A program made the translations under genes and the position numbers. Of a stretch of DNA of 21,352 nt, positions 1 to 21,352 are shown piece by piece; within the stretch, counting starts at the first letter, position 1, and every line of letters begins with the position of its first letter. The notes beneath the pieces are model-generated. The model searched no databases. It was not told the DNA's origin and saw only the letters and a list, made by a program, of their open reading frames with translations. The DNA comes from Boothiomyces macroporosus (lineage: Eukaryota; Chytridiomycota; Chytridiomycetes; Rhizophydiales; Terramycetaceae): NCBI GenBank assembly GCA_027604185.1, contig JADGKB010000171.1:1-21352 (forward strand), written 5' to 3'.

Positions 1-1302
1 GCTACAGTTGTTGGGTCGATTGCGTCCGCTGGCTTGTAACTGGCTCCTCCTGGATAGTAGTATGGCTGAATTTGGTATTCTGCGCCATTGGACCACTTTG
101 ATACTTGGACAAGGCTGGCGTCTGCCTGAACATTCATAATCGCGTAGTCCCCGCTTCTGTCGCCGTTCTGGTCCAGAGATATCCTTCCCGTCGTCGTGTC
201 ATGATTTGGGAAGTTAAATGATTGAGGGACTTGCATCTGGCTGTTTAGCTCACCTGCATTAGAGCGGCTTACCATTAGCGAGCTTGGTGACATTGTTTCC
301 GTTTGCTTTGACCAGAGCATCAAAGCCCAAAAGCGCTAGATCGACGCAGCTGCTGTGGAAATAGCCAAACGGGCCGCTGCTGTTGATCGAAGACACGTTT
401 GCGCCAGGGTTTCCAACGCCGAGTCTGTTGGCTTTCCAGTAGGCGTCAAAGGCGTCCGACACTGGCCCGTCAGCCCGCTCCAGCGGGAACAGATACGAGG
501 TGCCGGCATAGGCAGTAGTAGGGACCATTTGCTGCAGCCCGTCGGTTCCGATCCAAAAGTATCCAGCGCCGTAGCAGCCAGCCAGCGTGGCCTGCTGGAC
601 GATCACCTCGTACTCTGCTGCAAACCCGAAATACACAATGATCCTCGCTTCGGCAGAAATAATTTGCTGTGCGATTTGATTGGCTGCATTTGCGTCCACA
701 TTCGTTTCCACTAGCTGTCTCGAAAGCACGGTTATGTTATACTGCGACGCGTAATTCAGAAAAGAGGATATGGCTCCATTCCCATAGTCTTCGTCGGTAT
801 TAATAGTGGCGATTTTGTGCCAGCCGTTGAAAGCAAGGTATTGGGCCATCGTGAGCGTAGCAGCGTTATCGTTGGGGATGGTTCGGAAAAAGTTTGGGTA
901 GAGCGCTTTCTGTCCCAGAGTCGGATTAGTGGAAGAGCCGCAACACATTGGAATTTGGTAGTTTTGTAGAATCAACGAACTAATAATCGACATTGACGAG
1001 TATCCGGAACCAAAGATAAATATTTCTCCGTCAAGAGCCATATCGAGTGCCTGAGGAATCAACTGCGCCTTGCTTCCATGGTTATTTAGCAGAGTCGGTA
1101 CAATTGTTGCGTTTGGGTGTATTAGCGAAGTGTTTTGGTTGAGCTGGCTGATTCTTACAAAGACACCTTCAATTTCATCAGCTAAATCGTTAGTTCCGTC
1201 AAGATAGAACATGAGAATTCCTACCTTGATTTGTATCGTTCCATTAGGAGTGAGACATTTACAAATCCCTAAGAGTAGGGCTATCTGATAGAGCAAATTC
1301 AT
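1..1302 (-). CDS. Class C GPCR-like / ANF-receptor ectodomain protein, left copy (3' partial)
   Basis: Exons 1302-273 and 253-1 (runs off the window), joined by a 19-nt GT-AG intron at 254-272 with a CTAAT branch site. Without splicing the frame stops just inside the intron; with splicing it stays open to the window edge, giving about 427 visible residues. The N-terminus is a hydrophobic signal peptide (MNLLYQIALLLGICKC). The rest resembles the periplasmic-binding-like fold of ANF receptors and class C GPCRs: a ligand-lobe pattern with FFRTIPND, a central TINTDEDYG segment, and DQNGDRSGDY after the intron, typical of the return to lobe 1. A C-terminal seven-helix domain would be expected but is not in the window. 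It is probably a cell-surface receptor for a small ligand. The right copy (20051-21352) differs at 7 bases and 1 residue. Fold assignment is fairly sure; the ligand is unknown. Confidence 0.8.
1..1302. repeat. Inverted repeat, left arm
   Basis: Base i of this arm pairs with base 21353-i of the right arm over 1302 positions with no indel. I found seven mismatches, at 658, 721, 793, 940, 1003, 1059 and 1243. The outer 657 bases are identical, so all divergence lies in the half nearer the start codon. Homology nearly stops at the ATG; only short promoter blocks survive beyond it. Confidence 0.95.
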
Positions 1303-1310
1303 TAAAAGTT

Positions 1311-1322
1311 AAGTGATGTCAC
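1311..1322 (-). promoter_or_regulatory. Conserved proximal block GTGACATCACTT (left copy)
   Basis: On the minus strand this 12-mer ends 8 nt before the start codon at 1302. The same 12-mer lies 10 nt before the right-copy ATG, although most other upstream sequence differs. A second shared block, TTAATTTACAC, is at 1351-1361. TGACATCA resembles an ATF/CRE-like core, but the position suggests a 5' UTR or core-promoter element. Function unknown. Confidence 0.4.
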
Positions 1323-2249
1323 TTTGGAATCGCGTCCAGCTTCTGTGACAGTGTAAATTAAAGAGATTGATATCATCAAACGATAGGATTAAACCTTTTA
1401 GTTTTGAAAGAAACTACTCGTATCTGCTATCAGTGTACGATGGTTCCATTTTAGCACATCTCGCGCAGCAAGCCCTTATAATCTTAAGCTAAACAGGGTA
1501 TTATTGATCTCATGGTAAAGTATATCTTTAGTCTCTATCTTTTCATCGGATCTACCAGGATTACTAAACTGCATTCAAAAACTTTTTTCAAATACAAACT
1601 ATCTTCGTTACATTAGTCAAATTTCAGGTATACATTTTCAGTGAAGCGGAAAAATAGTAGTGATGTAATACACTACTAAAAGCGCGATATAAGAGATTTG
1701 ATGATTGTATAACTATGATAATGTGAAGTTACCATCAAAGTGCGATTATCTAAGGTCTTGTGGAGTCGTGCAAGTTTTGTAACCGAAACTGCAATCATCG
1801 CAATATATTCAAATATAAAAGCATGGAAGTTGAGGCGTTAAGAGATGACACGGCAAATTCCTGATATAACGATGAAGAATGAATAAATAAGAGGACATGC
1901 AGCTTAGAGGAGATAGTTCTGACCATATGAACATCTGAGACTATATACAACTTAAAAGACCCTGCATTCTACTAGTATTGCAAGACATGTAGCTCTGAGA
2001 TCCGCGGAAAGACATCAGGAACTTTGCACTCGTACTTACTGGCAGAATGTATGATGTTCCATGCCCTCAGACATTCCACCTGTAAACTGTGGTTCATTCT
2101 GTGCAGTTACTTGCAAGGTCATCATCAAAAGCAATTTTTGAATATTCTTAATAAAACTTTAATCATGAATTGGGGCAAAATTATCGACAACAATGGTGTT
2201 CAAGTGTTATAAGCACCCAATTGAAGTCATAAATCTGCGATACACTTTC

Positions 2250-2255
2250 TTTATT
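2250..2255 (-). terminator. AATAAA poly(A) signal
   Basis: AATAAA on the minus strand, 14 nt after the stop codon of the 2270-3118 gene. This fits the very short 3' ends seen across the window. Confidence 0.6.
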
Positions 2256-2269
2256 CTTTAAATATGCAC

Positions 2270-3118
2270 TTAATCCAGAATAGTTAATTTTGACATCATC
2301 ACTTTTCCTCTTTTACCTGTGGATTCATTCAATGCGTCTGCCCACTACAATTAGGTGATACATACCTGATCACTATATATTTTATCAACCACTATGATCT
2401 CGCCATACCGCAATTCTAATTCATCTTCATGCTCTTCATGTTCTCTTGTTACAATATACTTTGATAGTAACTGATGCTTTTCACCTTCATCCTTCTTTTT
2501 AGATTGAGTAGTGAACACTAGTAAAAGTAACAGGAATACGAACACTCCTGCAATAATGAAATATACATACATTGGCGGCTGGACTTGTTGCAGCGAGTAA
2601 TACTTTTTACAGCAGCTTTCTGATGGAAACTTGCTACAATACTCTGACTTAAGACTGCCCAGTCCGCAAGTGGACGAATCAGCTTTTACCCCCATTATAC
2701 AATCTTGATTATTGCACAGTGTAATGTTGGAAAATAGATTTCTCCTGGAAATAATAGCAGGGTCTGTAGTAGGTTCGCATGACGAGATAAGTTTCCGAAC
2801 TGATTGTCCATAGTAATCACAAACTGCACTACACATATTGGTTTTTTGGTTATTACAGTGGGACGAATATACGTACAAGTCGGTTAGACAGTAGTAACTG
2901 GTAGAGTATTGAATTATTGATCCAGAATAAGATGGACAAGCCAAATAAGTGCTCCACGCTTGTTTCAATAGTTGTGTATCGGTATTGAGCTGGGAAATGG
3001 TTTGGCTCCATCCGGCAAGCGAAAGATTCCTCTTATATACTTTTGATAATACCTGCAAGTCTATCGAACCAGATAATGGAGCGCATATGGAATCGGCGGG
3101 TATAGGAGTGCAAGTCAT
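2270..3118 (-). CDS. Cys-rich ectodomain / single TM / SH3 protein, second tandem copy
   Basis: Exons 3118-2366 and 2344-2270, with a 21-nt intron at 2345-2365 (CTAAT branch). The product is 275 aa. Splicing completes an SH3 domain: the unspliced frame stops four codons into the intron, while the spliced one continues WADALNESTGKRGK and ends in a final SH3 strand. Order: Cys-rich extracellular region (about 1-175), a TM helix (YFIIAGVFVFLLLLLVF) followed by KKK, then a cytoplasmic SH3 domain with DELELRYGEIIVV. It is a diverged paralogue of the gene at 3171-4211; both share CLTD, a following CNN motif, and a Cys-Cys pair before the TM. Unlike that gene it has no signal peptide at the first ATG and only 52 bp of upstream space. 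Probably a surface sensor or scaffold; ligand and partners are unknown. Confidence 0.75.
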
Positions 3119-3169
3119 TTGGAAAGTTTTTTCACAGCCTGCGCATGAATGTAATTGAAACAGATTTAA

Positions 3170-3175
3170 TTTATT
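3170..3175 (-). terminator. AATAAA overlapping the stop codon
   Basis: The TAA stop (3173-3171) lies inside AATAAA on the minus strand. The transcript end should therefore fall within the 52-bp gap before the next gene. Confidence 0.6.
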
Positions 3176-4211
3176 TTAATTCTTCAATATGATCTTTAAA
3201 CACTTTACCTTCTTCCAAGGTAGTGATGTTGCGCACCTCTACCCACTTGTCATCGTGTTCATGCAGGACATCGATAAAGTCGCCTACTTTAATATTCAAT
3301 TCGTCTGGTCGAAGAGCATTATAGTCAAACTTTGCAATGTAGCGCTTCCCCGTTTTGACTGGAGGTTGAGGCGCTGGTGCTGCTCCTGGTTCATTTACTC
3401 TTCGTTGATAGAGCACCACATACATACCACCAGCAAAGACAAAAACACCAATGAACGAGCACAAGATTACAAAGCCAATTGAATTAAAGAAACCAGTGCT
3501 TTCGCTCCCCTTTTTCTTGGGTATGTCAACATCAAGTGCACTAAGGTAATTGGCTGCTCTTTGTGCAAAATTGAGGTTTGAATCGTATCGCATTTGTTCA
3601 GCGACATAACCATGATCAGTAAACATGGCTTTTGAAAAACCTTTCTTTACACAGCAACTTGCTTGGGGATTGTTTGCACAAAAGACAGTAGCAGTTGTTT
3701 TATCCCCACCAAATCCGCAGGATTGCTGATCTAGCGTAGTTCCTGAAATGCAGGTTCCTTGTTGGTTGGAACTAAACTCCATGCATAGCTGTTCAGCATT
3801 TAAAGCGTTCTTTCTGTTTCTAGCTTGAAGGGGAGTAGGATATGTACAAGTAGGAGATTTCAATAGCCTAGCGAGCGCATCTCCGTAGTCTTTGCAAACT
3901 TGATTACACACTGGCGCCGGCTGTTTATTGTTACATTCCGAAGACATCAAAAAAATATCAGTTAAACACATGTAGGTCTGGTAATATTGAATAGCCTCCC
4001 CGTTTGTAGTGCATCCCAACCATTCTTTAACTGGAGGCGGTTGCTTTACGAGTGATTCCCACTTTTCAGCTGTAACTTGGGATTCTGGAATTCCATAAGC
4101 TCTGGCAATCTTGTAAGTATCAATCATGCTATTCTGATACGGATTACAAACAGATGTTGATGCGATTGAAATGCACTTTGAAAGTGCTGAATTTGCGAGC
4201 AGCAGAATCAT
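3171..4211 (-). CDS. Cys-rich ectodomain / single TM / SH3 protein, first tandem copy
   Basis: Single exon, 346 aa. Order: signal peptide MILLLANSALSK, a Cys-rich ectodomain with about 14 cysteines (about 13-240), a TM helix (IGFVILCSFIGVFVFAGGMYVVLY) followed by RR, a Pro/Ala-rich linker, and a C-terminal SH3 domain with AKFDYNALRPDELNIKVGD and DDKWVEV. The architecture is that of a type I membrane receptor-like protein whose SH3 domain would recruit Pro-rich partners. I know this arrangement from several non-Dikarya fungi but cannot name an orthologue. It lies 52 bp upstream of its paralogue in the same direction. A TGACTCA site at 4387 is about 175 bp upstream of the start. AATAAA overlaps the stop codon. 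Confidence 0.8.
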   Translation of the reverse strand: MILLLANSALSKCISIASTSVCNPYQNSMIDTYKIARAYGIPESQVTAEKWESLVKQPPPVKEWLGCTTNGEAIQYYQTYMCLTDIFLMSSECNNKQPAPVCNQVCKDYGDALARLLKSPTCTYPTPLQARNRKNALNAEQLCMEFSSNQQGTCISGTTLDQQSCGFGGDKTTATVFCANNPQASCCVKKGFSKAMFTDHGYVAEQMRYDSNLNFAQRAANYLSALDVDIPKKKGSESTGFFNSIGFVILCSFIGVFVFAGGMYVVLYQRRVNEPGAAPAPQPPVKTGKRYIAKFDYNALRPDELNIKVGDFIDVLHEHDDKWVEVRNITTLEEGKVFKDHIEELK

Positions 4212-4386
4212 TAGTTTTTTCGGTTGGTATTTAGATTTTAAGGCAGCAAAATTTTTGAGGCTGAAGGTGTGGGAGCAGCAACTCTCTCAGCCCAAGGAAG
4301 CCATCACCACTAGTGGAGTGTCCGCCTTCTGATGGCAACGCTGATAGTTAGAACAGAGTAGATCTCGCTTTGTTAATTTTGTCGGA

Positions 4387-4393
4387 TGACTCA
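4387..4393. promoter_or_regulatory. TGACTCA (Gcn4/AP-1-type site)
   Basis: Exact TGACTCA between the 3' end of the cytochrome b561 gene and the start of the SH3/TM gene at 4211. It matches the site bound by the bZIP class encoded at 19152-19652. A 7-mer can occur by chance. Confidence 0.35.
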
Positions 4394-4415
4394 GAATGAC
4401 ATTTCAAATCAACAA

Positions 4416-4421
4416 TTTATT
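4416..4421 (-). terminator. AATAAA poly(A) signal
   Basis: Minus-strand AATAAA 8 nt downstream of the cytochrome b561 stop codon. Confidence 0.6.
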
Positions 4422-4429
4422 TTACAAAT

Positions 4430-5844
4430 TTAATCTTTCTTTGGCATTTGGATGACCACCTCTTGTTCCTTGTCGTCATCTTTTCTTGTGTGCCTCACTG
4501 GCGAAGAAGGAGAGTTTGAATTCGTCTTTTCACGCACACGGCCAACTGGATCTTCTCTGACTACAATTTTTGGACTGGAAGCATCACCGTGTTTATCTTT
4601 CTTTGCAATTGCTGCTGTGATGGATCCTGTGAGCTCTCCTTCTGGACTTAGAGAGCGCTGGACACCTGTTGATGGACTAAAGCCAAACATATTCTTTGAT
4701 CTATTGGCTGGATCTGCTGAACGAGATAATGATGTTCCTGGACTTCCTAGGTTACTAGAAATAAATGACTGGCGCTTATTTACATCAGAAGCATTTGCAG
4801 TAACAGAATTTGTTCGAGACCTGTTTCCAATCGCATCTGATGCCGATCCAGTGCGTTTTACTTCTACTATTGAATTAGTTCGAGATCGTAGTTTTGTTTT
4901 CTCATTGTCCTTGTTCTTGATGCGTGTCAAAATGTCTGGTTCGTAAGCAGGCTTCTTTTCTTCCAGAGGTTTTTCTACGTATCCTTCTACAGAGACAATC
5001 GATTTGATATCCTTTTGCTGCTTGAGTCCAGAATCCCACGTTGGCCGGTACATGAATGGACTAGTGTTCCCTTCCTTTCTTCTTTCCACAGCAAAATTGT
5101 TTGGTGTTATATCATTGTTGGGTGGTGTAGTTGCCTCATCATCGCTGCTATGGCTTTTCCCGGTAGTTTTGATGGCCTTCATTCGTTCAGCCAATGACAT
5201 GGAAAACAGCTTGTCAGCTCCAACACTTGCGGCTGCGACAAAGATATTACCTTCTGCGTACCTTGAGGCTCTACCATAATGTCTTTCGAGGTAAATACCA
5301 ATGGCACTGGCAATCGCAAACCATGCAAAGTATGCAATGTAGTATTCAGTAGTGTCAAAATCTTCATCAAAATATTGATAGTGGTGGATTCCCATGAAAG
5401 CGTTAATCGCACCTATTGCCAATAGAATCTTTCCAATATATCCGTGAATGTTGTCCTGAACTGGCTCCTGCTTGTCATCACTGGCTGGTGTAGTTGCACA
5501 ATAGATACCCAGCCCGATTTGGATTAATAGTATTGCTACCGCAGACCACCCTAATAGGCTGTGGGTGTCATTTGTATGCCAATTGACACCAGTCTTTCCA
5601 GGGCTGACAAAGTACAGACCAAACACGATGAATAGTGTCGATATGGCTGCCAACGATCCATGAGCTCTTAACCACCAGTCATCTAAATGTTCCTATCATT
5701 AAGTCAATATACTTTTAAATATCGACCTATACCGGCGATGCACGGTAACAGTACACCAAAAGTGAGTGCCATCAAAATCGCTCATGTTAATATAACATTA
5801 CCATGCGCTTGCATGCTTGTTAATGCTGAATCATCTAAATCCAT
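4430..5844 (-). CDS. Cytochrome b561 domain protein with long cytoplasmic tail
   Basis: Exons 5844-5802, 5780-5713 and 5692-4430; introns of 21 nt (5781-5801) and 20 nt (5693-5712); 457 aa. The two short 5' exons are needed to build the first helix and the b561 core: QAH, then ILMALTFGVLLPC, then WWLRAHGSLAA. Four candidate haem-ligand histidines are His14, His48, His81 and His120, the b561 pattern, in a predicted helical bundle covering about residues 12-185. There is no DOMON domain and no signal peptide. It is probably a transmembrane ascorbate- or iron-linked electron carrier in an internal or plasma membrane. The last 270 residues are low-complexity and Ser/Asn-rich, with two RSRTNS motifs fitting the RxRxxS consensus of AGC kinases. 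AATAAA follows 8 nt after the stop. Confidence 0.8.
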
Positions 5845-6221
5845 CGTTCTGTATTGAAAAATGTTTTGAAAATTGAATGCTGTGCAAATATCATTGTCAC
5901 ATTGTTGGCACATTTATGGCAATGGCACATTGTTGATTAATCAAAACAAACATGAATCATAGAGAATAATATTGAGCAGCTTTAATTAAATGGCAGCTGT
6001 GTGAGTTGCAGGTTTGGTAATAATGTCAGAGTAGCTGCATAGGCTATATACTTGATTGGAAAAAGTCATGCAATGCACCTTTCTGTAATTTATGTAACCG
6101 CCATTGTACTACTGTTGACCACTTTGTAAATTCAATTCCAAGATACTTTTGACAAGTAGCAAGTCTGTCGTGGTAATCCAATAATTTCAAGTCTCTAAAA
6201 AATCTCTGGAAATGATTCAAT
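5845..6221. other. Intergenic region, b561 promoter
   Basis: Upstream region of the b561 gene and 3' flank of the dehydrogenase. It contains a small imperfect repeat around 5890-5935 (CACATTGTTG twice, separated by GGCACATTTATGGCAATGG). I see no TATA box, gene or RNA. Confidence 0.4.
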
Positions 6222-6226
6222 TTATT
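6221..6226 (-). terminator. AATAAA overlapping the stop codon
   Basis: The TAA stop of the dehydrogenase (6224-6222) is the central part of AATAAA on the minus strand. The sequence around it resembles the end of the SH3/TM gene at 3171. Confidence 0.65.
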
Positions 6227-7803
6227 TTAATTGAGGCATGTTAACTGATGCTTGGGTAGAAGCAACATCTTCGTTACGCCATAATGAAGTAACAGTCTTG
6301 TAGTGAGTATAGAATTGAACACCAGATTTACCATAAAAGTTCAAATCACCCAATATACTTCCTCTTGATCCGGTGAAGGAGAACATTGGAAGTGGGACAG
6401 GAATTGGAACGTTAACACTAATGTTAGTTGTGTCTTACCCAACTTGGCCAACGTCAATTTCTTCAGTGAATTTGCGGGCTGCTGGACCAGAGTTTGTGAA
6501 AATAGCAGTTCCGTTTCCGTATGGGTTGTTGTTGATCAATTGAATTGCATCGTCCAAAGTATCAGCTTCCAAGCAAATCAAGACTGGTCCAAAGATTTCT
6601 TCCTTGTAGCATCTCATGTGAGGCTTTACATTGGTCAAAATAGTTGGAGCCAAGAAGTTTCCGTTTGGATATGCTTTTGGTCTGTATCCTCTTCCGTCAA
6701 GAACTAAAGTTGCGCCTTCATCAACACCAGATTGAATCAAGTCTTCAGCTCTCTTTAATGCTTGAGGAGTAATCATCGGTCCCAAGTCTGCACCTTCTTG
6801 GAAACCTTCACTGACCTTCAAAGCTTTTGCTCTTTCAACCAATTCTGGTAACCACTTCTTAGTTTCACCGACAAGAACAACGGTAGAAAGAGCCATACAA
6901 CGTTGACCTGCAGCACCAAAGGCAGCGCCAACCAATTGGTTAATGGTGTGATTCTTGTTTGCATCAGGTAAAATTACACCGTGGTTCTTTGCTGCCAAGT
7001 TGGCTTGAACACGTTTTCCGTTTAGGGATCCTCTGTTATAAATATGTTTTCCTGCTTGATCAGAACCTACAAATGAGATTGCTTTAATGGCTGGGTCGTC
7101 ACATAAAAAGTTGACGGTATCAACACCACCATGAACAATGTTCAAAACACCCTTTGGTAATCCAGCTTCTTCGGCCAACTTGGTCAACAGCATTGTGCAT
7201 CCAGGATCCCTTTCAGATGGCTTCAAAAGCATAGTGTTACCACAAGCAGTAGCAACAGGGAACATCCATAATGGAATCATGGCTGGGAAGTTGAATGGTG
7301 CAATACCGGCAGTAACACCTAATGGCTCTCTGATGGTATAAGTGTCCATTCCAGCTGAAACAGCAAGCTTTTCACCCATCAAGGAAGTTGGGATACCACA
7401 GGTAGCTTCAACAACTTGCAATCTAGATTAAATGAAATTACCCTCTCAACACATCACCCTTTGCATCAGGAAAAGTTTTTCCTTGTTCAGTAACGATAGA
7501 AGCAGCCAATTTGTCCATGTTATTTCTAATCAAAGCTTGCAATTCAAACATTACACGTTGGCGAGTAAGCACAGTAGTCTTTTTCCATGTTTTGAATGCG
7601 CTAGAGGCAGCTTTCTGAGCTTCCTTCAGTTCTTGTGCGGTAGTTTGAGGAACATAAGTTACGATTTCATTGGTGGCAGGGTTACGCAATTCAAACCAGC
7701 GATCAGTTTGAGATTCAATGAATTCTCCGTTAATATATAGTTTCGTAGATGGTGCGCCGGCTGGCTTTGCAACAGTTCCAAATTTTCTTGCTGCTCTCCA
7801 CAT
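6222..7803 (-). CDS. ALDH6A1: Methylmalonate-semialdehyde dehydrogenase (CoA-acylating), mitochondrial
   Basis: Exons 7803-7442, 7422-6439 and 6417-6222; introns of 19 nt (7423-7441) and 21 nt (6418-6438); 513 aa, near the usual family length. It is an aldehyde dehydrogenase of the MMSDH class, which oxidises methylmalonate semialdehyde to propionyl-CoA in valine and pyrimidine breakdown. Visible signs are a Lys/Arg-rich N-terminus (MWRAARKFG) fitting a mitochondrial presequence, [12 protein letters not shown], the catalytic Cys296 in [18 protein letters not shown], and [20 protein letters not shown] after the second intron. The latter is characteristic of MMSDH rather than other ALDHs. Both splices restore conserved protein (DVLRGLQVVE and QVGVNVP). 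The gene is a clean housekeeping reference for the micro-introns. AATAAA overlaps the stop. Confidence 0.95.
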
Positions 7804-8857
7804 TATTTTTTGTGAAAAAGTCGTGGTTCGAATTTTCTTTAACAGGAAGGGGCTAAATTAAACATAGCACATGATCAGTGATTTGATTGAAAGAGATGAG
7901 ACTAGCGAGGAACGAGAGTTGTATTTAGGCTATTCCGGCGACTTTTTCAACTGTTGGCGGTGAATTGGTGTTTCTCCTTCCCTGTATTTGATCAGTCTGT
8001 TGCCAAAACCTTTGTCATGTGACTTTTGCCCCAACTCACAGAACCCACATTTGAAACACCAACACAGCATTCTGATAAAATCAGTTCTTCATCAGTATTC
8101 GCTACTCATTTCAGGTAAATCTAAACCAGGTTCATATTTAAAACTACATTTTTTATGGATGCGAACATTCATGAGTTTGATAAGTATTTCGCTGGAATCT
8201 TGGTGAAATTTCAAAGAGTGAAGCTTTTTCTGTCCTAATGCTAAGAATCTCAGTTTGGAACTCTTGAGTTGAACAAGTGGGTCTCCTATGATAGCTGTGA
8301 ACTGAAAAGTTTGGCTGAAATCATTGGTCAGTTGATAGCTATTCCATCAGAGCTGATATCCCCAAGGTTCCATCATTTAGCTGGTATCTATAACATCACC
8401 AACTCTAATATCGCCATCTTTCAAATAATAAGATTATCTCCACCAAAGAGTTTTCGCTTCTATTTTAGAAGCAAGAATTTCAGCCAAATTTTTTGATTTC
8501 AAACATTTATGAAATGCGTGATTCTAGAGAGCGATTTATCAGCGACCATAGATCTCAAAGCGAGTATCTTTTTCAGTATCCCTCAGCGTACCGGTTCATC
8601 TTCTGTGTCCAGATACCTGTTATTTATTCTATTTCTTTTGTTCCATGAGCCACATTGAATACAGGAAAGATTACAAATAACTTACCAAGTTTTAAACAAA
8701 TTTTATTTCCAATTACAGTAGGCAGTAGGTACCCAGTAATCCCATCTGCAAGTATTTATCCATAGCATGAAAAATTCGATTGGACGAGATTCCTCAGCTA
8801 TTTTTCCACCGATTTATAGGAATTCTAGAAATTTTCCAAGGTTTCAAACAATATCAA
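7804..8857. other. Intergenic region between divergent genes, possible coding remnant
   Basis: Divergent promoter region of the dehydrogenase (left) and the Zn2Cys6 gene (right). On the minus strand one frame is open for 84 codons from 8346 to 8095, with no start codon near its beginning. The same frame continues upstream to about 8490 broken by three stops and includes KDGDIRVGDVIDT, which is slightly SH3-like. Plus-strand frames of 73 and 76 codons (7988-8206, 8269-8496) show nothing recognisable. It may be a decayed gene or chance; I cannot decide. Confidence 0.25.
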
Positions 8858-9217
8858 ATGGACCAGAATAAAAGCAGTGAAGAGCCAAGCGAATATCAGA
8901 ATAACGAAAGCAAAGCAGAGGAGAGAGCGGAGCATTCTAAACCCACCGCTAAATATACCAGAGTCTCGAAAGCGTGTGATGTATGCATCAAGAAGGTAAA
9001 TTTGGATTAAATGCAGAGAAGGAAATGTAGTGGGACTCTCCCCTGTGAAAGGTGTTCGGCGAGGAATGTAGAGTGCGCTTTTACTAGTATATCGAGGAAA
9101 AGAGGACCTAATGGACCAAGGAACAAGAGGCATCCCCATGGGCCAACTGAAGAAAAGCAGTTCAAGTCAGATATCATCAATGAGGCCAAAGACAGCCCTT
9201 CTTCTAGTGCTAGTTGA
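8858..9217 (+). CDS. Minimal Zn(II)2Cys6 zinc-cluster protein
   Basis: Exons 8858-8995 and 9017-9217, with a 21-nt intron (8996-9016) splitting the zinc cluster; 112 aa. Splicing yields a complete fungal binuclear cluster with spacing C-x2-C-x6-C-x5-C-x2-C-x6-C (CDVC, KKRRKC, PCERC, VEC). A basic stretch follows (SRKRGPNGPRNKRHPHG), as is usual for the linker that sets DNA half-site spacing. The N-terminal 40 residues are acidic and polar. Zn2Cys6 factors are commonly 500-1000 aa with a fungal-specific regulatory domain; here there is only the DNA-binding module and a short tail, with no dimerising coiled coil visible. It may be a competitor of a larger factor or a truncated gene. I used the first in-frame ATG; the frame itself opens further upstream. 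Confidence 0.8.
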
Positions 9218-9887: not shown

Positions 9888-11457
9888 CTAGTATCCTTGT
9901 GGTCTTGCAAGTACAGGTGGTAAAGTTGGATCTTCCTGCAAATATCCCGAGTTTAGCAAAATTGGAGGTTGATTCTGAGCTGATGCTGGAGACATGACAT
10001 TTTGAGGTTGATTTCCTGAATACATTGGTGATTGGGGTGTCATGGCTGAATAATCTGTTACTTTATCCGAGCTATCATATCTAAGTTGGCCATAGTTGTC
10101 ATTTCCTGATAAAATTCCAGAAGAACTAGTGTTAGTTGCATACCCAGATCCTTGGTTAATCCCTTGGTTGAAATCAGAAGACTCACTAGGCAGCGAGAAG
10201 CGATTATGTGGAGAATTGGACCATGCGTTTTGGTTAATTGCAGGTGGATTCTGAGCAGGTATATCGTTCAAAACATAGGGTGTAAAAGATTGTGCAGTTG
10301 TTGCTGGAGACCATCTTGCATTTGGAGTTACAGGGGTTTGTGGTGAAGAGTAGTAGTCTGGTGAACTTGGAGGTATACTATTTGGAGCAGATTGAAGATC
10401 CTTACTTTCTGATACGGATTTTCTTTTGTGTACAACAAATATAAATCCAAGGCCAGCAATAATTACTACGGCAAATACAACACCGCCAATTAGTAAACCT
10501 AGTGAAGATGTTGATGATGAACCCTGCTGGTTGCTCATAGTGAGTGGATTTTCATTTCCGGAATTGCCGTTAGTGTTTGAACTATTACCACCTGGATCGC
10601 CAGAAAGAGTTACACCATTAGGTAAGTTTGGCGCGGCTGGAACCCCAGATGGTTGGCTGCCTGCAACTGTAGTTTGCTTGGGTGAAGTTGCCCCAGCTGC
10701 AGAAGACGGGAAAGTATTTTTTGGTGCATTGTTGCCAGAATTTCCATTGTTATTGTTACTATTTGAAGAACCACCATTTCCAGCATTACCTCCTCCACTA
10801 TTACCATTTGTACCTCCGTTATTACCATTAGAGCCTCCGTTATTAGATGATGATCCGCCATTTCCCCCATTATTACCTGATGATCCGCCATTTCCTCCAG
10901 TAGGAGGGGGAGTTGGTTGAGGTCTATTGTTAATGCTGTTCATGGCTGCACATTTTTTCATTCCAAATGTGATTAATCTATTCACTTACTTTGGAGGAGG
11001 TGGTGGTGGAGGCGCAGGAGGACTTGCACAGGTGATTGAATTGCCTCCTACAACTCTACAAGGTGGTGATCTACCAAGAATAAATCCGCAATTGTAGTAC
11101 TGCTGTCCTGCAACGACTGTCATTGATTGAATGGTATTACTGAGAAAGTAACAAACTCCATTCGGCATATTGCTTGAATCGTACAAGAAATGCCAGGAAA
11201 AACAATCTAATTTTTAATGAATTGTTACTTGGATCATTTTGGCAAGCAGGTCCACAATTTCCATCTGTTGTGCCTGGTGGAGAACTGTACGCTGCATGCG
11301 GTCCACCACTCCAATAACACCCGTTGTGTGTACTATAAGGGGCCAAAATAAAGAAGGATGCGCCGTTATCCCACGAAGTAAAGTGTGCGCCATTATAATC
11401 TACTAAAGCGTCATGGGCTACCTGAGCTTGAACGGCTTGCAATAGAAGGTGTAACAT
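9888..11457 (-). CDS. Wall-sensor-like membrane protein: Cys-rich head, Gly/Asn/Ser stalk, TM, polar tail
   Basis: Exons 11457-11229 and 11206-10990 are joined by a 22-nt intron (11207-11228); then a disputed junction leads to 10968-9888. With a 21-nt excision at 10969-10989 the product is 508 aa. Order: N-terminal hydrophobic stretch MLHLLLQAVQA (weak signal peptide); a Cys-rich, PAN/apple- or WSC-like head (NGCYWSGGP, CQNDPNCFSWHF, GVCYF, YYNCGF); poly-Pro; a Gly/Asn/Ser stalk of about 80 residues; TM (LGLLIGGVVFAVVIIAGLGF); HKRK; and a Ser/Pro/Asn/Gln-rich cytoplasmic tail. The layout is like Wsc/Mid2 sensors that feed Rho1-Pkc1, and PKC1 is about 3 kb away, but the head is not a certain WSC domain. 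The in-frame TAA at the second junction needs explaining (see findings). Confidence 0.6.
10740..10905 (-). repeat. Low-complexity Gly/Asn/Ser stalk repeats
   Basis: Degenerate GGx/NNGG-coding repeats inside the wall-sensor-like gene. At DNA level GATGATCCGCCATTTCC occurs twice (about 10850 and 10879). Such stalks commonly vary in length between alleles. Confidence 0.7.
10969..10989 (-). other. Non-canonical 21-nt intron candidate (GT...AC)
   Basis: The two flanking exons are in the same frame, separated only by a TAA inside GTAAGT. A 21-nt excision starts with a perfect donor, has TTAAT at the usual branch position and keeps the frame, but ends in AC instead of AG. Frame-keeping AG alternatives are 12, 54 or 66 nt; the first AG after the branch site (44 nt) breaks the frame. 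Confidence 0.35.
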
Positions 11458-12259
11458 CTCCAAATTCGACTGAAATCACTTGTTTTATAGTGCTTTTCTG
11501 TGCGCCATTGGTCTCCGAATACACCCAAAATAGGAACCGAAACTGGTAGATCCTGAAATTTGAATTTCTGCAACCGAATACTTGTCAAAGATATTTTCTA
11601 ATTCAAATAATACCAAATTGAACAGAGAATTATTGTTATCACTGGAATTGATGTACATTTGTCCTTTTTAGTGTATTCCCAAAATTTGCACTTTGACCTC
11701 CGAATCCGAAATTACAAGACCGAATTCAACCAAATTCAAAGATTTTCAATTTGATTTCTATGAAATAATTCGTGGATGAGACTGCGATCATGAAATCAAC
11801 CCGTTAGCCCTCAAAAATTCTTCAATATAGAATGGCGGTATCAATCAGCTGGATATTCAAGCAAAGAATCCAACAGCACACTGTTTCGTATTCAGCTTCA
11901 CTATTCTAATTTTCATTGCAATCCCACAGCAGTTGCGAAATCTAGGAAAAGTTCATGTCGCACAACCGAATTTAGCCGATTTACATTCTAAAAAGTTGAA
12001 GCCTCTAAAGCTACACTTTCATGTACCGCATTTAAGGCAATGATTGATTATCCATCATTACTAAATCATTGGATGCAGATCTATTGAAGAGGTTTTATTG
12101 AAGCTGCAGAGAGAAACCGTTCGATATCATAACTCATTTCTGGTTTCCAGGTGTAAGTTTCATCGACGGAAGGCGGGTATTTTCGTGCTGGTAACGAAAT
12201 TGGTCCAGAGTAGTGTTGCTGAAACTGCATTTCGTTTCTCAAATATTTTCGAATCTCTA
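11458..12259. promoter_or_regulatory. Bidirectional promoter region with a CCGAA cluster
   Basis: Divergent region between the wall-sensor-like gene and the XLF gene. CCGAAT or CCGAAA occurs seven times on the plus strand, at 11515, 11537, 11574, 11700, 11706, 11720 and 11966. From base composition I would expect well under one CCGAA per strand here. The frame of the XLF gene is open back to 12098 but has no ATG before 12260. No other gene or RNA is seen. Confidence 0.35.
11483..11489 (-). promoter_or_regulatory. TATAAAA box close to the start codon
   Basis: TATAAAA on the minus strand ends only about 25 nt before ATG 11457. If it works as a TATA box with ordinary spacing, the 5' leader would be almost nil; otherwise the box is fortuitous or a further 5' exon is missed. 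Confidence 0.3.
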
Positions 12260-13420: not shown

Positions 13421-13473
13421 GTGAATTCCGAGTGGATTGCGTTGCATTAAAGCAAACTAAAGAGATCTATAGA

Positions 13474-13479
13474 AATAAA
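13474..13479 (+). terminator. AATAAA poly(A) signal
   Basis: Plus-strand AATAAA 53 nt after the XLF stop, and only about 25 bp from the end of the convergent RING gene. The two transcripts probably overlap at their 3' ends. Confidence 0.5.
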
Positions 13480-13501
13480 TACCAACTACATATTAATCCT
13501 G

Positions 13502-13852
13502 TCATTTATTTACAGCCAATACCAATATATTCTGCTCGTCACAAACTTGGCTCTTGCAATATGGGCATTGTCTACTGTACTTTCCCAACCATTTGTCCAC
13601 ACAGTCCAAGTGAAATAAATGACCGCACTTCAAATCTCTAATCAAGTCTCCGCAATACACTTTTTCCAAACAAATCCCGCAATCATCTTCCACTTTACAC
13701 TTCTTCATATTCAGCACATGTATCTTTGGCTTTTGCGGTGGTAAATTGATAATCAGAATGGCAAAGAGCAGAATCAAAGGACCGAATAGCGAAGGTATGA
13801 GCTGAACTAGTTTTGATATCTGTGTTGATAATGAATACTTTAGGCCGTCCAT
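13502..13852 (-). CDS. Membrane-anchored RING-H2 E3 ubiquitin ligase
   Basis: Single exon, 116 aa. One TM helix near the N-terminus (about 18-37, IPSLFGPLILLFAILIINL) is followed by a C-terminal RING-H2 finger: CGIC, then CGHLFHLDC, then CPYC, i.e. C3H2C3 ligands. The small TM-plus-RING-H2 layout fits an E3 acting at the ER, Golgi or vacuole. The substrate is unknown. No signal peptide is obvious and the TM probably anchors the protein with the RING in the cytosol. The last two codons before TGA form AATAAA, so the poly(A) signal is coding. It converges on the XLF gene. Confidence 0.85.
   Translation of the reverse strand: MDGLKYSLSTQISKLVQLIPSLFGPLILLFAILIINLPPQKPKIHVLNMKKCKVEDDCGICLEKVYCGDLIRDLKCGHLFHLDCVDKWLGKYSRQCPYCKSQVCDEQNILVLAVNK
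13505..13510 (-). terminator. AATAAA inside the last two codons
   Basis: AAT AAA TGA: the signal is wholly coding (Asn-Lys) and directly precedes the RING gene stop codon on the minus strand. Confidence 0.5.
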
Positions 13853-14615
13853 TATGAGGTAAAAGTTTAAATTGAATGGCGTTGAGGTTCATGTGATTTT
13901 AACCGCACCGCGCAATGATCAATCGCCATAATTTTGTCTGACAGAGCTTGGCTGGTGACATGCGAGTTTGAATATAAAGGAAAATACAACGGCAGGTTGT
14001 GTTTGGTTTCTTTTTGAAAGGCAATGCAATTTATAACAGATCGTTGACTATGAACTAGCAATCTGATATTGAAAGTGCTGGTATTTAAGCACGCATAAAG
14101 TTAGCGACCATGAAAAATGAAATTTCTTGGTTGCTTTATTCAGCTTGCCGAATCGAAGAATATCGTGGCATCAAACAGGATAGGGGAAAGCATTATTGAG
14201 ATTACAGGGTTTCTTCAGCAATATCCGCAAAAGTAGTTTTTTCAATGAAATAGAAAGCATGGCAATCCACCAACTCTTCATATAAAAAGTCCATCTTGCA
14301 ACTCTCAGAGCATTTTAAAGCCCTGATGGTTTTGGTCAAGAATCAAGTAAAAGACAAATGACATGTACTTGGTAATTCTATAGATATATAATACATCAGC
14401 GAGCATGCTTTCCACAATGCGATTGTAATAGTCGCATATTTTCCTTTGTCATAAGATATCTTGTATAACCACTGCCAGAGAATGGGGATTTCGGTCGCAC
14501 ACCGACAGCGAATATAAATAGAAGCGAGCGACGTTCATTCGGCTGAGATTATCCAATTGGTATTCTCTGTGTTCCAAAAAAACGCCCTTTCAAAAAACGC
14601 AAATCTGCATCCGGA
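13853..14615. other. Intergenic region upstream of PKC1, possible small ORF
   Basis: Divergent promoter region of the RING gene and PKC1. A plus-strand 39-codon ORF at 14117-14236 (starts MKFLGCFIQLAE, ends in TAG) ends at a GTAG that begins a 21-nt GT...TAG stretch of the local intron size. The following sequence is open in another frame to a TGA near 14360. The minus strand is also open here for about 45 codons. I cannot make one consistent gene model. A TATAAATAG box for PKC1 is at 14513. Confidence 0.25.
14513..14521 (+). promoter_or_regulatory. TATAAATAG box of PKC1
   Basis: Consensus TATA box 95 nt upstream of the PKC1 start codon. The identical 9-mer precedes the small gene at 18310. 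Confidence 0.5.
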
Positions 14616-17634
<3,019 letters not shown>

Positions 17635-18208
17635 AGCTTTTCTTTTTAGACTTTTAGGATTACATGGGTATCCTGGCTCCATCTTGCATGATAGTTGGTG
17701 GCGCTGTTGAGATAAACCAGCTCCACTGCTATCAAACTGAGCTGATATTACTAGTTGATCATTAAGAGTGACTATGCAGTTCTAAAAGAAGGATCTCGGA
17801 ACTAAATCTAATTCTATATTTCAAATCTAGCCACACAGATCCTTATATCTTTGGCCGGGATAATACCCGGGAATATTAATAACGAACTCAGACCAATATT
17901 TAATTTGCTTTCGATATACCGGCAGATAGACAATCTTGTAAGCAGATAGAGTGCAATAAGACTGTAATACTTGCATTATTTTCCCTTATCTAACAGTCCT
18001 TCATCTTTCAAGTTTATGCATATCTGTGAGCAACCAATCATTTCTTATTTTGCATTGTGAAAATGATGTCTGTTGCAAATCATTAAGCTACTTTTCACGG
18101 GACCCACATGCTAATTATTTGAATATTCTTGGAGAATAGCAAGACCACTACACCAACAGAAGCCAAAAATAATAGTAATCGCAGTCATATTTTCCTTGTT
18201 TTTTGTTC

Positions 18209-18215
18209 TGACTCA
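18209..18215. promoter_or_regulatory. TGACTCA site upstream of the 106-aa gene
   Basis: Exact Gcn4/AP-1 consensus about 95 nt before the start codon at 18310, and 60 nt before the TATA box. Confidence 0.5.
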
Positions 18216-18252
18216 CTATGTGTCATTTTGTTTTCGGATTTATGTGGCATGG

Positions 18253-18259
18253 TGAGTCA
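18253..18259. promoter_or_regulatory. TGAGTCA site upstream of the 106-aa gene
   Basis: Second Gcn4/AP-1 consensus, 10 nt upstream of the TATA box. Two such sites within 45 bp make chance less likely. Confidence 0.55.
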
Positions 18260-18268
18260 ACCGCCACC

Positions 18269-18277
18269 TATAAATAG
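18269..18277 (+). promoter_or_regulatory. TATAAATAG box of the 106-aa gene
   Basis: Consensus TATA box 32 nt before ATG 18310, implying a very short 5' leader. Confidence 0.6.
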
Positions 18278-18309
18278 CATCCAAAATCGTTTTTCATTAA
18301 TTTCAAAAA

Positions 18310-18630
18310 ATGGCACAACCAAACTATACCCTCGAAGAATTCATGGACAGCTTCATCGCATGCAATTTCGATTGCAATTCAATCTCTACACTCTCAGAAC
18401 AAGAACCACCAGTCTCGCCTACCTCATCTTCAGCTACATTATATTACACTGAAGAGCCAAATCAAACTGTAGGCAGCATATCTACTTTTGCGATACATGA
18501 CTTGCTCTACAGTGAACAAGAAAAGTACCAGTTACAAGAGTACTTGAAGAATTGCAAGATGTACAGCCAAAAAAGCAACGATTTCAAAATATTCACTCCT
18601 CTACTCAATCCGCAACTTCGATCTATTTGA
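18310..18630 (+). CDS. Small acidic protein of unknown function (106 aa)
   Basis: Single exon with its own TATA box, two AP-1-type sites and AATAAA 12 nt after the stop, so it is very likely a real gene. I recognise no domain. The N-terminus TLEEFMDSFIACNFDC is acidic and aromatic, recalling SSFEEFLQTEF at the start of the neighbouring bZIP protein. A Ser/Thr/Pro-rich middle contains VSPTSSS, and a short amphipathic segment (IHDLLYSEQEKYQLQEYL) could form a coil. There is no basic DNA-binding region, signal peptide or TM. It may be a bZIP-less relative of the next gene or a stress-induced target of it; both are inference. Confidence 0.6.
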   Translation: MAQPNYTLEEFMDSFIACNFDCNSISTLSEQEPPVSPTSSSATLYYTEEPNQTVGSISTFAIHDLLYSEQEKYQLQEYLKNCKMYSQKSNDFKIFTPLLNPQLRSI

Positions 18631-18642
18631 TTTCTTATTTAA

Positions 18643-18648
18643 AATAAA
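18643..18648 (+). terminator. AATAAA poly(A) signal
   Basis: Plus-strand AATAAA 12 nt after the TGA stop of the 106-aa gene. Confidence 0.6.
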
Positions 18649-18724
18649 CCCTTTTTGTATAGTATTCTCGTCTGTCTTTATTTTTATGCGTATTTGTTTT
18701 TCAGCCACCAAACTCGAGCACCAC

Positions 18725-18731
18725 TGACTCA
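18725..18731. promoter_or_regulatory. TGACTCA site upstream of the bZIP gene
   Basis: Exact Gcn4/AP-1 consensus about 195 nt upstream of the TATA box at 18925. The downstream gene encodes the class of factor that binds this site, so autoregulation is possible. Confidence 0.5.
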
Positions 18732-18924
18732 TCCTTGTGCAATACGATGGAATCATAGCGAGGATGATGATTCTTGTCGGAAACTTACCGGCATTTTATC
18801 AAGTACAGCTCTCTAAAAGGATTAGATTAATCAAGCACAGCTGCTGTTTCAGAGGCTGAAAGCGCCTTTTGGGGCAGTGTGAAAGACCAATTGAGGGGAG
18901 CAAGTGGCGTGATCAAAGACCAAA

Positions 18925-18930
18925 TATAAA
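18925..18930 (+). promoter_or_regulatory. TATAAA box of the bZIP gene
   Basis: TATAAATT about 220 nt before ATG 19152. A start site 25-35 nt downstream would give a leader of roughly 190 nt, much longer than other genes here and long enough for the uORF. Confidence 0.45.
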
Positions 18931-19090
18931 TTCACCAGATTTGCACTGTCAAAACAGAAAAAAGTTTTGCGAGTTCCTACAGCCAGGGAACTACTATACA
19001 GACAGACGAAACTTGAACCACCGCCAAAATATCAGCGCAAGAAGAAACCGGCTCCTTAAACACCTTTCTGAACACTACTCTATCTCGCGA

Positions 19091-19159
19091 ATGCAAAACA
19101 ACCGAAATAAATTCCTTGGAAACCTTTTTAACTGGTCCAAACCAGAATCTAATGGATAG
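19091..19159 (+). promoter_or_regulatory. Overlapping upstream ORF of the bZIP gene (22 codons)
   Basis: It starts at the only ATG between the TATA box and the main start. It encodes MQNNRNKFLGNLF and nine more residues, and its TAG lies 3 nt past the main ATG (8-nt overlap, different frame). Ribosomes that translate it should miss the main start, an inhibitory layout like ATF4 uORF2. It may also be chance. Confidence 0.45.
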
Positions 19160-19652
19160 CGCTCCATCCAGCTTTGAAGAATTTTTGCAAACTGAATTCC
19201 CATTGCCGCAAATGGAATCTAGCACTCCTGTAGAAATGACTCCGCAATTTGCTCCAGTGGATATGACTCCATTCTTTGCTCCAGTTGATATGACTCCTCT
19301 ATTTACATCAGTAGATATGGCTCATGTATCTTCTGTTAGCACTGTATTTTCTCCATTGCAAATGGCACGCAACTTGTCTACTTCTGGAGTCTCCAAGAAA
19401 AGGAGAGAGTACACTATGAACCACCAAGAACTTTTGGCTGATGTTGAAGAAAGAAGACGTAGAAATACTGAATCTGCTAGAAGATCTCGCGCCAGAAAGT
19501 TGGAAAGAGTTCAAGAGTTGGAACGCCGATTGGCTGAATCTGAAAAGATCCGTCAAGAAATGGCTGGACAACTTGCTCAGCTTTTGGCTGAGCGTCAACA
19601 GAGGCAAGCTCAACAAAAGAATGTAACTATGTTGCCATCTGCTTTGTTTTAA
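19152..19652 (+). CDS. bZIP transcription factor, Gcn4/CpcA type
   Basis: Single exon, 166 aa from ATG 19152. The C-terminal bZIP (about 88-150) has the basic region RRRRNTESARRSRARK, nearly the Gcn4 sequence, followed by heptads LERVQELERRLAESEKIRQE and a Gln/Arg-rich end. The N-terminal half is an activation region with SSFEEFLQTEF and four tandem 9-residue repeats of the form FAPVDMTPx. Gcn4-type factors turn on amino-acid biosynthesis under starvation and bind TGACTCA. The frame is open upstream to 19017 and reads plausibly (SLNTFLNTTL, SLETFLTG), so a non-AUG start or missed 5' exon is possible. AATAAA overlaps the stop. Confidence 0.85.
   Translation: MDSAPSSFEEFLQTEFPLPQMESSTPVEMTPQFAPVDMTPFFAPVDMTPLFTSVDMAHVSSVSTVFSPLQMARNLSTSGVSKKRREYTMNHQELLADVEERRRRNTESARRSRARKLERVQELERRLAESEKIRQEMAGQLAQLLAERQQRQAQQKNVTMLPSALF
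19209..19316 (+). repeat. Four tandem 27-nt repeats coding for 9-residue units
   Basis: Inside the bZIP gene. Units read STPVEMTPQ, FAPVDMTPF, FAPVDMTPL and FTSVDMAHV, the middle two nearly identical at DNA level apart from third positions. Boundaries are approximate. Confidence 0.75.
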
Positions 19653-19656
19653 TAAA
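19651..19656 (+). terminator. AATAAA overlapping the bZIP stop codon
   Basis: TAA at 19650-19652 is followed directly by TAAA, so AATAAA begins inside the stop codon. Confidence 0.65.
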
Positions 19657-20050
19657 AATATCTCTGTGATTCACTATTGCAATCTTGGTCACCACAAACA
19701 ATACTTGCATTGAGTGCGAAATCTGGCAAGTTGAGGTTCGAAATGCCCCACACATGTAGATGGATTATGTCATCCGCTTATAGATTAACAACAAACTATC
19801 ATACAATTGAAGTGTTGAAAGAAAAAGTGAGGCGAATAGAGCAAAGAAAAAGATTCTTTTATTATCTGTTAACCAACATGTAGTCTTAATCCGAAAACGA
19901 ATCTTTACCCCTATTTTACTGGTATCAAGACCAAACAGCTCACAGCGATCCAAATTATATCTGTTCAACATTCATTCTATGCAATTAATTTACACAGTAT
20001 TAGTGATAGCACAAATCGCCAAAACATGGTGACATCACTTTGTCTTGGAA
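19653..20050. other. Intergenic region, right receptor promoter
   Basis: 3' flank of the bZIP gene and promoter of the right receptor copy. It aligns with the left promoter only in two blocks (19985-19995, 20029-20040). A 68-codon plus-strand frame at 19677-19883 has no recognisable feature. No TATA box is clear. Confidence 0.4.
20029..20040 (+). promoter_or_regulatory. Conserved proximal block GTGACATCACTT (right copy)
   Basis: Same 12-mer as at 1311-1322, here 10 nt upstream of ATG 20051. The companion block TTAATTTACAC is at 19985-19995. Both blocks are kept in the same order at similar spacing in the two otherwise diverged promoters. Confidence 0.4.
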
Positions 20051-21352
20051 ATGAATTTGCTCTATCAGATAGCCCTACTCTTAGGGATTTGTAAATGTCT
20101 CACTCCTAACGGAACGATACAAATCAAGGTAGGAATTCTCATGTTCTATCTTGACGGAACTAACGATTTAGCTGATGAAATTGAAGGTGTCTTTGTAAGA
20201 ATCAGCCAGCTCAACCAAAACACTTCGCTAATACACCCAAACGCAACAATTGTACCGACTCTGCTAAATAACCATGGAAGCAAGGCGCAGTTGGTTCCTC
20301 AGGCACTCGATATGGCTCTTGACGGAGAAATATTTATCTTTGGTTCCGGTTACTCGTCAATGTCGATTATTAGTTCGTTGATTCTACAAAACTACCAAAT
20401 TCCAATGTGTTGTGGCTCTTCCACTAATCCGACTCTGGGACAGAAAGCGCTCTACCCAAACTTTTTCCGAACCATCCCCAACGATAACGCTGCTACGCTC
20501 ACGATGGCCCAATACCTTGCTTTCAACGGCTGGCACAAAATCGCCACTATTAATACCGATGAAGACTATGGGAATGGAGCCATATCCTCTTTTCTGAATT
20601 ACGCGTCGCAGTATAACATAACCGTGCTTTCCAGACAGCTAGTGGAAACGAATGTGGACGCAAATGCAGCCAATCAAATCGCACAGCAAATTATCTCTGC
20701 CGAAGCGAGGATCATTGTGTATTTCGGGTTTGCAGCAGAGTACGAGGTGATCGTCCAGCAGGCCACGCTGGCTGGCTGCTACGGCGCTGGATACTTTTGG
20801 ATCGGAACCGACGGGCTGCAGCAAATGGTCCCTACTACTGCCTATGCCGGCACCTCGTATCTGTTCCCGCTGGAGCGGGCTGACGGGCCAGTGTCGGACG
20901 CCTTTGACGCCTACTGGAAAGCCAACAGACTCGGCGTTGGAAACCCTGGCGCAAACGTGTCTTCGATCAACAGCAGCGGCCCGTTTGGCTATTTCCACAG
21001 CAGCTGCGTCGATCTAGCGCTTTTGGGCTTTGATGCTCTGGTCAAAGCAAACGGAAACAATGTCACCAAGCTCGCTAATGGTAAGCCGCTCTAATGCAGG
21101 TGAGCTAAACAGCCAGATGCAAGTCCCTCAATCATTTAACTTCCCAAATCATGACACGACGACGGGAAGGATATCTCTGGACCAGAACGGCGACAGAAGC
21201 GGGGACTACGCGATTATGAATGTTCAGGCAGACGCCAGCCTTGTCCAAGTATCAAAGTGGTCCAATGGCGCAGAATACCAAATTCAGCCATACTACTATC
21301 CAGGAGGAGCCAGTTACAAGCCAGCGGACGCAATCGACCCAACAACTGTAGC
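20051..21352 (+). CDS. Class C GPCR-like / ANF-receptor ectodomain protein, right copy (3' partial)
   Basis: Exons 20051-21080 and 21100-21352, with a 19-nt intron at 21081-21099. This is the inverted duplicate of the left-edge gene. I chose ATG 20051 because it matches the only ATG of the left copy; a TTG six bases upstream extends the frame but is not needed. The protein differs from the left copy at residue 82 only (Val here, Ile there). It has a signal peptide and periplasmic-binding-like ectodomain, and the end lies beyond the window. Six of the seven base differences from the other copy are silent, so both copies appear to be under protein-level constraint and functional. A 12-nt block shared with the left promoter lies just upstream of the ATG. 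Confidence 0.8.
20051..21352. repeat. Inverted repeat, right arm
   Basis: Mirror copy of positions 1-1302. Mismatches are at 20110, 20294, 20350, 20413, 20560, 20632 and 20695; all are silent except 20294 (Ile/Val). The two arms are separated by 18,748 bp of unique sequence. Such a pair could recombine to invert the segment, or could be homogenised by gene conversion. Confidence 0.95.

Follow-up and report, generated by a model that had tools for sequence, protein, structure and literature searches.

The window analysed here, a stretch of 21,352 nucleotides (nt), is the whole of contig C171 in a genome of 15.2 Mb and 216 contigs, and its protein matches suggest that the host is a chytrid near Boothiomyces (Rhizophydiales, Terramycetaceae). 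Genes of this window, among them those for PKC1 and MMSDH, are interrupted by GT...AG stretches of 19–22 nt that are very probably spliceosomal introns. Stretches of the same size recurred across a sample of the genome, and we consider it highly likely that ordinary U2-type spliceosomal introns have shrunk to about 20 nt genome-wide in this relative of Boothiomyces.

Introns placed in the window

The original prediction had placed 19 introns in the window. For the nine that lie outside PKC1, GT and AG were found exactly at the predicted ends, at lengths of 19–22 nt (the test allowed GT or GC). A simple home-made gene model, referred to below as the decoder, was trained on 221 kb of the genome, the window included, with the list of predicted introns withheld from training. 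It recovered 17 of the 19; the two that it missed were 8996–9016, the gene for which was itself uncalled, and 14623–14642. The number of independent introns is 18, because 254–272 and 21081–21099 are copies of a single intron, one in each half of the inverted repeat formed by the contig ends (7 mismatches in bases 1–1303). The prediction had allowed for GT-AG or GC-AG ends; the former were confirmed, while the latter occurred in none of the 19 printed window introns, the set in which the GC-AG class was looked for. The decoder admits GT-AG ends alone.

Ten of the introns had been assigned to PKC1. Nine of these were called by the decoder, all at 19–22 nt, and the tenth is best read as 14623–14642, a placement that leaves a first exon of 7 nt and gives an N-terminus resembling those of the homologous proteins P0122–P0124. 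When the PKC1 joins were tested against six aligned homologues, the conserved sequence on either side of six of the nine decoded introns ran on gaplessly in all covering homologues. Invariant motifs were restored as had been predicted, YRDLKLDN in PKC1 and DVLRG/LQVVE in MMSDH (the slash marks a join), each in 6 of 6 homologues. At the join VGR/YPFHG the exceptions were Kappamyces P0121, which is without VGR exactly there, and the JGI protein P0137, which stops there. These breaks may reflect a mis-annotated intron in the relatives, hinting that a short intron could lie at the same place in their PKC1 genes. MMSDH and PKC1 were aligned to homologues along their length, and no intron longer than 22 nt was needed in either. 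Removal of 8996–9016 gives the pattern C-x2-C-x6-C-x5-C-x2-C-x6-C (read by eye), which we take to be Zn2Cys6 spacing.

Table 1. Introns of the window, with the evidence for each placement. Slashes in protein motifs mark the join.
Feature	Coordinates	Strand	Evidence
19-nt intron, ANF-receptor gene, left terminal repeat copy	254–272	-	GT-AG exact; decoder
21-nt intron, gene 2270–3118	2345–2365	-	GT-AG exact; decoder
20-nt intron, cytochrome b561-like gene	5693–5712	-	GT-AG exact; decoder; Pfam Cytochrom_B561 on next exon
21-nt intron, cytochrome b561-like gene	5781–5801	-	GT-AG exact; decoder
21-nt intron, MMSDH	6418–6438	-	GT-AG exact; decoder; gapless join, 6/6 aligned homologues
19-nt intron, MMSDH	7423–7441	-	GT-AG exact; decoder; DVLRG/LQVVE gapless, 6/6 aligned homologues
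21-nt intron, Zn2Cys6 gene	8996–9016	+	GT-AG exact; no decoder call
22-nt intron, decoded gene 10986–11457	11207–11228	-	GT-AG exact; decoder
20-nt first intron, PKC1, least certain	14623–14642	+	manual placement; no decoder call
21-nt intron, PKC1	14886–14906	+	decoder only; poorly conserved region
20-nt intron, PKC1	14955–14974	+	decoder only; poorly conserved region
21-nt intron, PKC1	15211–15231	+	decoder; KKRYNQ/LYV gapless in 5/5 covering homologues
22-nt intron, PKC1, GTCTGT donor	15344–15365	+	decoder; INVT/GRKS gapless in 5/5 covering homologues
21-nt intron, PKC1	15710–15730	+	decoder; AKDQ/VFRR gapless, 6/6
20-nt intron, PKC1 C1 domain	15864–15883	+	decoder; YQCT/SCNNTVH gapless, 6/6
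19-nt intron, PKC1 kinase domain	16935–16953	+	decoder; YRDLKLDN restored, 6/6; kinase-domain gap = 19 nt
20-nt intron, PKC1 kinase domain	17174–17193	+	decoder; VGR/YPFHG gapless in 4/6
20-nt intron, PKC1	17443–17462	+	decoder; gapless in 5/5 covering homologues
19-nt intron, right terminal repeat copy of 254–272	21081–21099	+	GT-AG exact; decoder

Intron length and anatomy across the genome sample

About 2% of the genome was sampled, as the 221 kb used for training (21 loci, the window among them) and a further 76 kb (22 loci). When coding flanks of 90 nt were joined across any GT...AG of 12–160 nt, 39 joins fell at 19–21 nt, compared with a mean of 4.4 for five dinucleotide controls, and no comparable excess appeared at other lengths within the 12–160 nt scanned. 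Neighbouring kinase-domain matches lying in different frames were compared without the use of the decoder (115 of 145 match rows were used), and 13 of the 15 pairs implied an insertion of 19–22 nt; for the remaining pairs the implied lengths were 11 and 32 nt. Twelve same-frame pairs, with implied insertions of 33–252 nt, were set aside because the two matches of each pair have an identical open-frame length, which is what an insertion within a single open frame would give.

The decoder, given a flat length prior over 12–400 nt and no branch term, called 184 introns, 87 of them at 19–22 nt. Several runs allowed a range of 14–32 nt, and were blind to introns above 32 nt; on the 221 kb, such a run gave 317 introns in 158 genes (116 of them with introns), and 267 of the introns measured 19–22 nt, both totals counting the duplicated intron of the window twice. 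For decoy signals made by complement, transition and transversion, the counts at 19–22 nt were 24, 9 and 11, out of totals of 121, 30 and 45 introns, respectively. Tiny introns were decoded in all of the 21 sampled loci, with 3–25 in each, and the density of decoded introns was about 1.85 per kb. Of the 114 introns decoded in the 22 loci that lay outside the training sequence, 61 were of 19–22 nt, and the rest were spread up to 120 nt with one to three per length. It may be noted that the decoder reached about 0.19 bits per codon when applied to the frames on which it had been trained, and that the absolute counts, gene starts or very short exons that it gives are individually untrustworthy. 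An intron length distribution peaking mainly at 50 nt or more, as is typical of fungi, had been named beforehand as one finding that would overturn the prediction; no such peak was present in the sample.

The predicted restriction to 19–22 nt was correct for the window and too narrow for the genome. The Isy1 gene has an intron of 46 nt (locus L044, 1761–1806; donor GTAAGT, end ACTAATGTTAG), wrongly called as 31 nt because of the 32-nt limit of the decoder, the 46-nt form being the one that fits the homologues. Some introns of 23–25 nt, seen in decoder calls, are also likely. Very short exons were decoded at two other loci. At 6642–6680 (+) of locus L028, there are either two abutting tiny introns with a zero-length exon or one intron of 39 nt, and near 3609 on the minus strand of locus L011, a 3-nt exon lies between two tiny introns.

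The donor was GTA in 265 of the 285 introns of 18–25 nt, and the introns were 71.4% A+U. As had been predicted, the branch site lies close to the acceptor: in the second pass, of 273 introns with a YTAAY-like consensus, 237 had 5 or 6 nt (AG included) after the branch A, and in 222 this A stood, by consensus, at intron position 14 or 15. In a first pass without branch columns, A was followed by six bases in 73 of 88 cases. A plain search for T[AG]A found a site in 233 of 266 introns, with a tail of 5–6 nt in 207 of the 233. The spread of 19–22 nt is made up mostly of a loop of 14–16 nt plus this tail, and the distance from 5' splice site to branch site would be 13–14 nt. It follows from such an anatomy that the spliceosome would act with almost no spacing. 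Three short signals are present in each intron, namely the GTA donor, the YTAAY-like branch site and AG. Intron definition is the probable mode of splicing, in which U1 and U2 would sit next to each other within a single stretch of 20 nt. Most introns have probably shrunk until there was just room for these signals, longer ones, such as that of Isy1, being rarer.

Splicing machinery and competing explanations

A check for the loss of U2AF, SF1 or U2 proteins in this genome had been proposed. SF1, U2AF65 and U2 small nuclear RNA (snRNA) were all found; the search did not extend to U2AF35 and the U2 small nuclear ribonucleoprotein components. Loss of Slu7 or Prp18 was likewise rejected, as both were found. 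Yeast Slu7 and Prp18 matter mainly where the distance from branch site to acceptor is long, and their retention here was hence unexpected. The best Protein Data Bank (PDB) matches of the spliced U2AF65 were RRM structures of U2AF65; further matches were to the C-terminal domain of U2AF65 and to a segment of U2AF59. Cwc25 (N-terminus MGGGDLNLKKSWHP) keeps the GGG motif, as MGGGDLN, and Isy1 was found as well. The decoded genes for U2AF65, Slu7, Prp18, SF1 and Isy1 themselves contain tiny introns. Among the snRNAs, U1 begins with AUACUUACCU and contains ACUUACCU, U6 has ACAGAGA, and two U2 genes have GUAGUA. The latter (contigs C80 and C178; loci L030 and L031) differ mostly in the 3' half, the branch-pairing region being common to both. 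RED was considered as a factor for short introns; RED_N (PF07808) had no match in a genome search run without a positive control, for which reason the non-match shows nothing.

The N-terminus of Isy1 reads MAPKTLAQKQE(DKL)ANILKKY, as compared with the usual MARN.EKA..ML.RF, from a first-exon model that is uncertain. At 1259–1307 of locus L044, a 20-nt intron, a 1-nt exon and another 20-nt intron restore EDK, akin to the usual EEK; the alternative is a single intron of 49 nt, as implied by the GenBank Boothiomyces protein P0241. Of 120 listed homologues, 68 start with M.R[NS] followed by EK, and many other listed homologues start inside that motif, the first exon having probably been missed. 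Departures from M.R[NS]...EK are shared by P0241 (MAPKTLAQKQEANILKKY), Kappamyces P0243 and Gorgonomyces P0278, and to a lesser degree by Globomyces P0242. We regard the seemingly changed N-terminus as a lead, not a result.

P0241, from Boothiomyces sp. JEL0838, matches Isy1 at 96% over its whole length and reads straight across three tiny intron sites. Because it agrees at these three introns, tiny introns are probably already in the GenBank annotation of Boothiomyces. The best matches of MMSDH were a JGI protein (81%) and, among named chytrids, Gorgonomyces (77%), and those of PKC1 were Kappamyces and Globomyces (69%); no Boothiomyces entry was among the best 120 listed matches of either protein.

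Several points weigh against ordinary U2-type introns of about 20 nt as the genome-wide rule. Intron removal, the exact ends and the branch points are inferred from the DNA. The decoder was trained on the same 221 kb on which its introns were then counted. The 76-kb set, lying mostly on contigs other than the training ones, had no decoy run, and it favours conserved genes because it was fetched through matches to kinases and splicing parts. The two second-pass branch figures are partly circular, because the acceptor model of that pass held branch columns. U1 scored 68.8 bits, just below the Rfam threshold of 69.5, and U2AF65 scored 230.7 bits against a family whole-protein cut-off of 310.3, because its exons match one by one. 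With the flat prior, the remaining 97 of the 184 introns were scattered over 14–397 nt with no peak. When 14–300 nt was allowed, with branch columns, 169 of 297 introns were of 19–22 nt and the other 128 were spread. Longer introns exist, their number being hidden by decoder noise. The 46-nt intron of Isy1 is backed by 5 of 5 aligned homologues, P0241 among them.

The longer introns just described would also suit a genome in which tiny introns stand beside a large, missed class of ordinary introns of 50–100 nt, as would the blindness of several decoder runs above 32 nt and the presence of YTRAY near the acceptor in 25 of 92 long decoder calls, compared with 7.5% of random AGs. The long calls, however, form no peak. 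GTA is present 17–24 nt before the acceptor in 16 of the 25, and in 11 of these 16 an AG also follows a branch-like motif, 17–24 nt downstream of the donor, a pattern that two tiny introns bridging a missed exon would be expected to give (the chance rate was not computed). Together with MMSDH and PKC1, in which nothing above 22 nt was needed, this makes a large missed class very improbable. Most intron lengths are not divisible by three, and in a scan of frames, sequencing or assembly indels, or frameshift or bypass sites, would therefore look alike. That such errors or sites break the frames is nevertheless scarcely credible: the stretches carry GT...YTAAY...AG in one register, the 19–22 nt length was not given by the decoys, removal of the stretches restores conserved proteins, and splicing factors and snRNAs are present. 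The tiny size might instead go with a changed spliceosome, having active-site losses or rebuilt parts, for which the non-match of RED_N and the departure of the Isy1 N-terminus from MARN.EKA could be cited. We think this unlikely, since SF1, U2AF65, Slu7, Prp18, Cwc25, the body of Isy1, U1, U2 and U6 are present and the first exon of Isy1 is uncertain.

Comparison with other tiny introns and minor observations

The introns described here are among the shortest for a nuclear genome, as the original prediction held, and they are not the record; their kind is known, and it is the place in the tree that is surprising. The nucleomorph and heterotrich introns named in that prediction proved to be the right comparison. 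In the cited passages, introns measure 15–16 nt in heterotrichs and 16–17 nt in mikrocytids, both shorter than here, and 18–21 nt in the chlorarachniophyte nucleomorph (PMC10245619).

As far as the cited parts of the source go, the heterotrich Stentor coeruleus (15–16 nt; PMC9505925) likewise has uniform tiny introns, mostly GU-AG, with an A+U content of 75.63% compared with 71.4% here, and a tail of 5 nt after the branch A compared with 5–6 nt. U2AF and SF1 are listed as present in Stentor, as U2AF65 and SF1 are here. In contrast, its loop is 10–11 nt (here 14–16 nt), its branch consensus is not strong (here YTAAY-like), and Slu7, Prp18 and Cdc40 are given as N/A in its table, whereas Slu7 and Prp18 are present here. 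Stentor Cwc25 is without the GGG motif, a change that was not found in the present protein, which reads MGGGDLNLKKSWHP; the N-terminus of Stentor Isy1 is described as strikingly non-conserved (PMC9505925).

The chlorarachniophyte nucleomorph has a near-identical length range and numerous introns, but it is the relict nucleus of an endosymbiont, with an extremely reduced genome, unlike the 15.2-Mb fungal genome studied here (PMC10245619, in the passages cited). Mikrocytids, too, show a narrow length range and conserved signals. They are obligate parasites with 224 predicted introns and a reduced spliceosome, 17–19 proteins of which were identified according to the same passages (PMC10245619), whereas here each part that was sought, except RED, was found. 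Among fungi, the cited portion of PMC8476143 gives a density of 4.5 introns per kb for Gonapodya, as against about 1.85 per kb decoded here, and names Cryptococcus neoformans, with a mean of 63 bp, as an example of "relatively short" introns, as against about 20 nt. Among the matches listed in the open-licence full-text literature, none was seen to report tiny introns in a fungus, and other papers may describe them.

Efficient assembly in human splicing in vitro is described as requiring roughly 50 nt from 5' splice site to branch site, and about 52 nt is the estimated minimum for a human B complex of unaltered structure, in the passages cited (PMC6692369). The distance here would be 13–14 nt, yet the factors look conventional. 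The other tiny-intron cases compared are ciliates, obligate parasites and relict nuclei; the present genome would offer a fungal case in which to ask what the smallest intron is that a spliceosome of ordinary appearance can excise. JEL strains, which include the close relative Boothiomyces sp. JEL0838, are cultured, and in a culturable fungus the lower limit for an ordinary spliceosome could be tested directly. With gene finders that require introns of at least 30–50 nt, many genes in such a genome would be split or truncated.

A wider proposal, which we offer tentatively and consider rather doubtful, is that a Rhizophydiales lineage (Boothiomyces, perhaps Kappamyces, Gorgonomyces and neighbours) has, independently of others, brought its introns down to the three-signal limit. 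It would have done so with a largely conventional spliceosome, including Slu7, Prp18 and Cwc25, the sole adjusted part being the N-terminus of Isy1, which is also altered in Stentor. If this were true, intron definition over 20 nt would allow exons of 1 or 0 nt, as read at the first introns of Isy1 and at 6642–6680 of locus L028.

Some minor observations concern the assembly and the neighbouring genes. The inverted ends of the contig (window 1–1303 and 20050–21352) carry the same ANF-receptor-like gene, and may have arisen through subtelomeric duplication or in the course of assembly. Equal-scoring duplicate matches were seen for Cwc25 (contigs C49 and C100), and for kinase and RRM matches that recur at a second position of the same contig (C10, C65, C20), suggesting duplicated or unmerged assembly sequence. 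At 2270–3118 and 3171–4286 of the window, both on the minus strand, adjacent genes encode proteins rich in cysteine, each of which seems by eye to contain a membrane span, and have the look of a tandem pair; one of the two proteins has an SH3 domain (Pfam).

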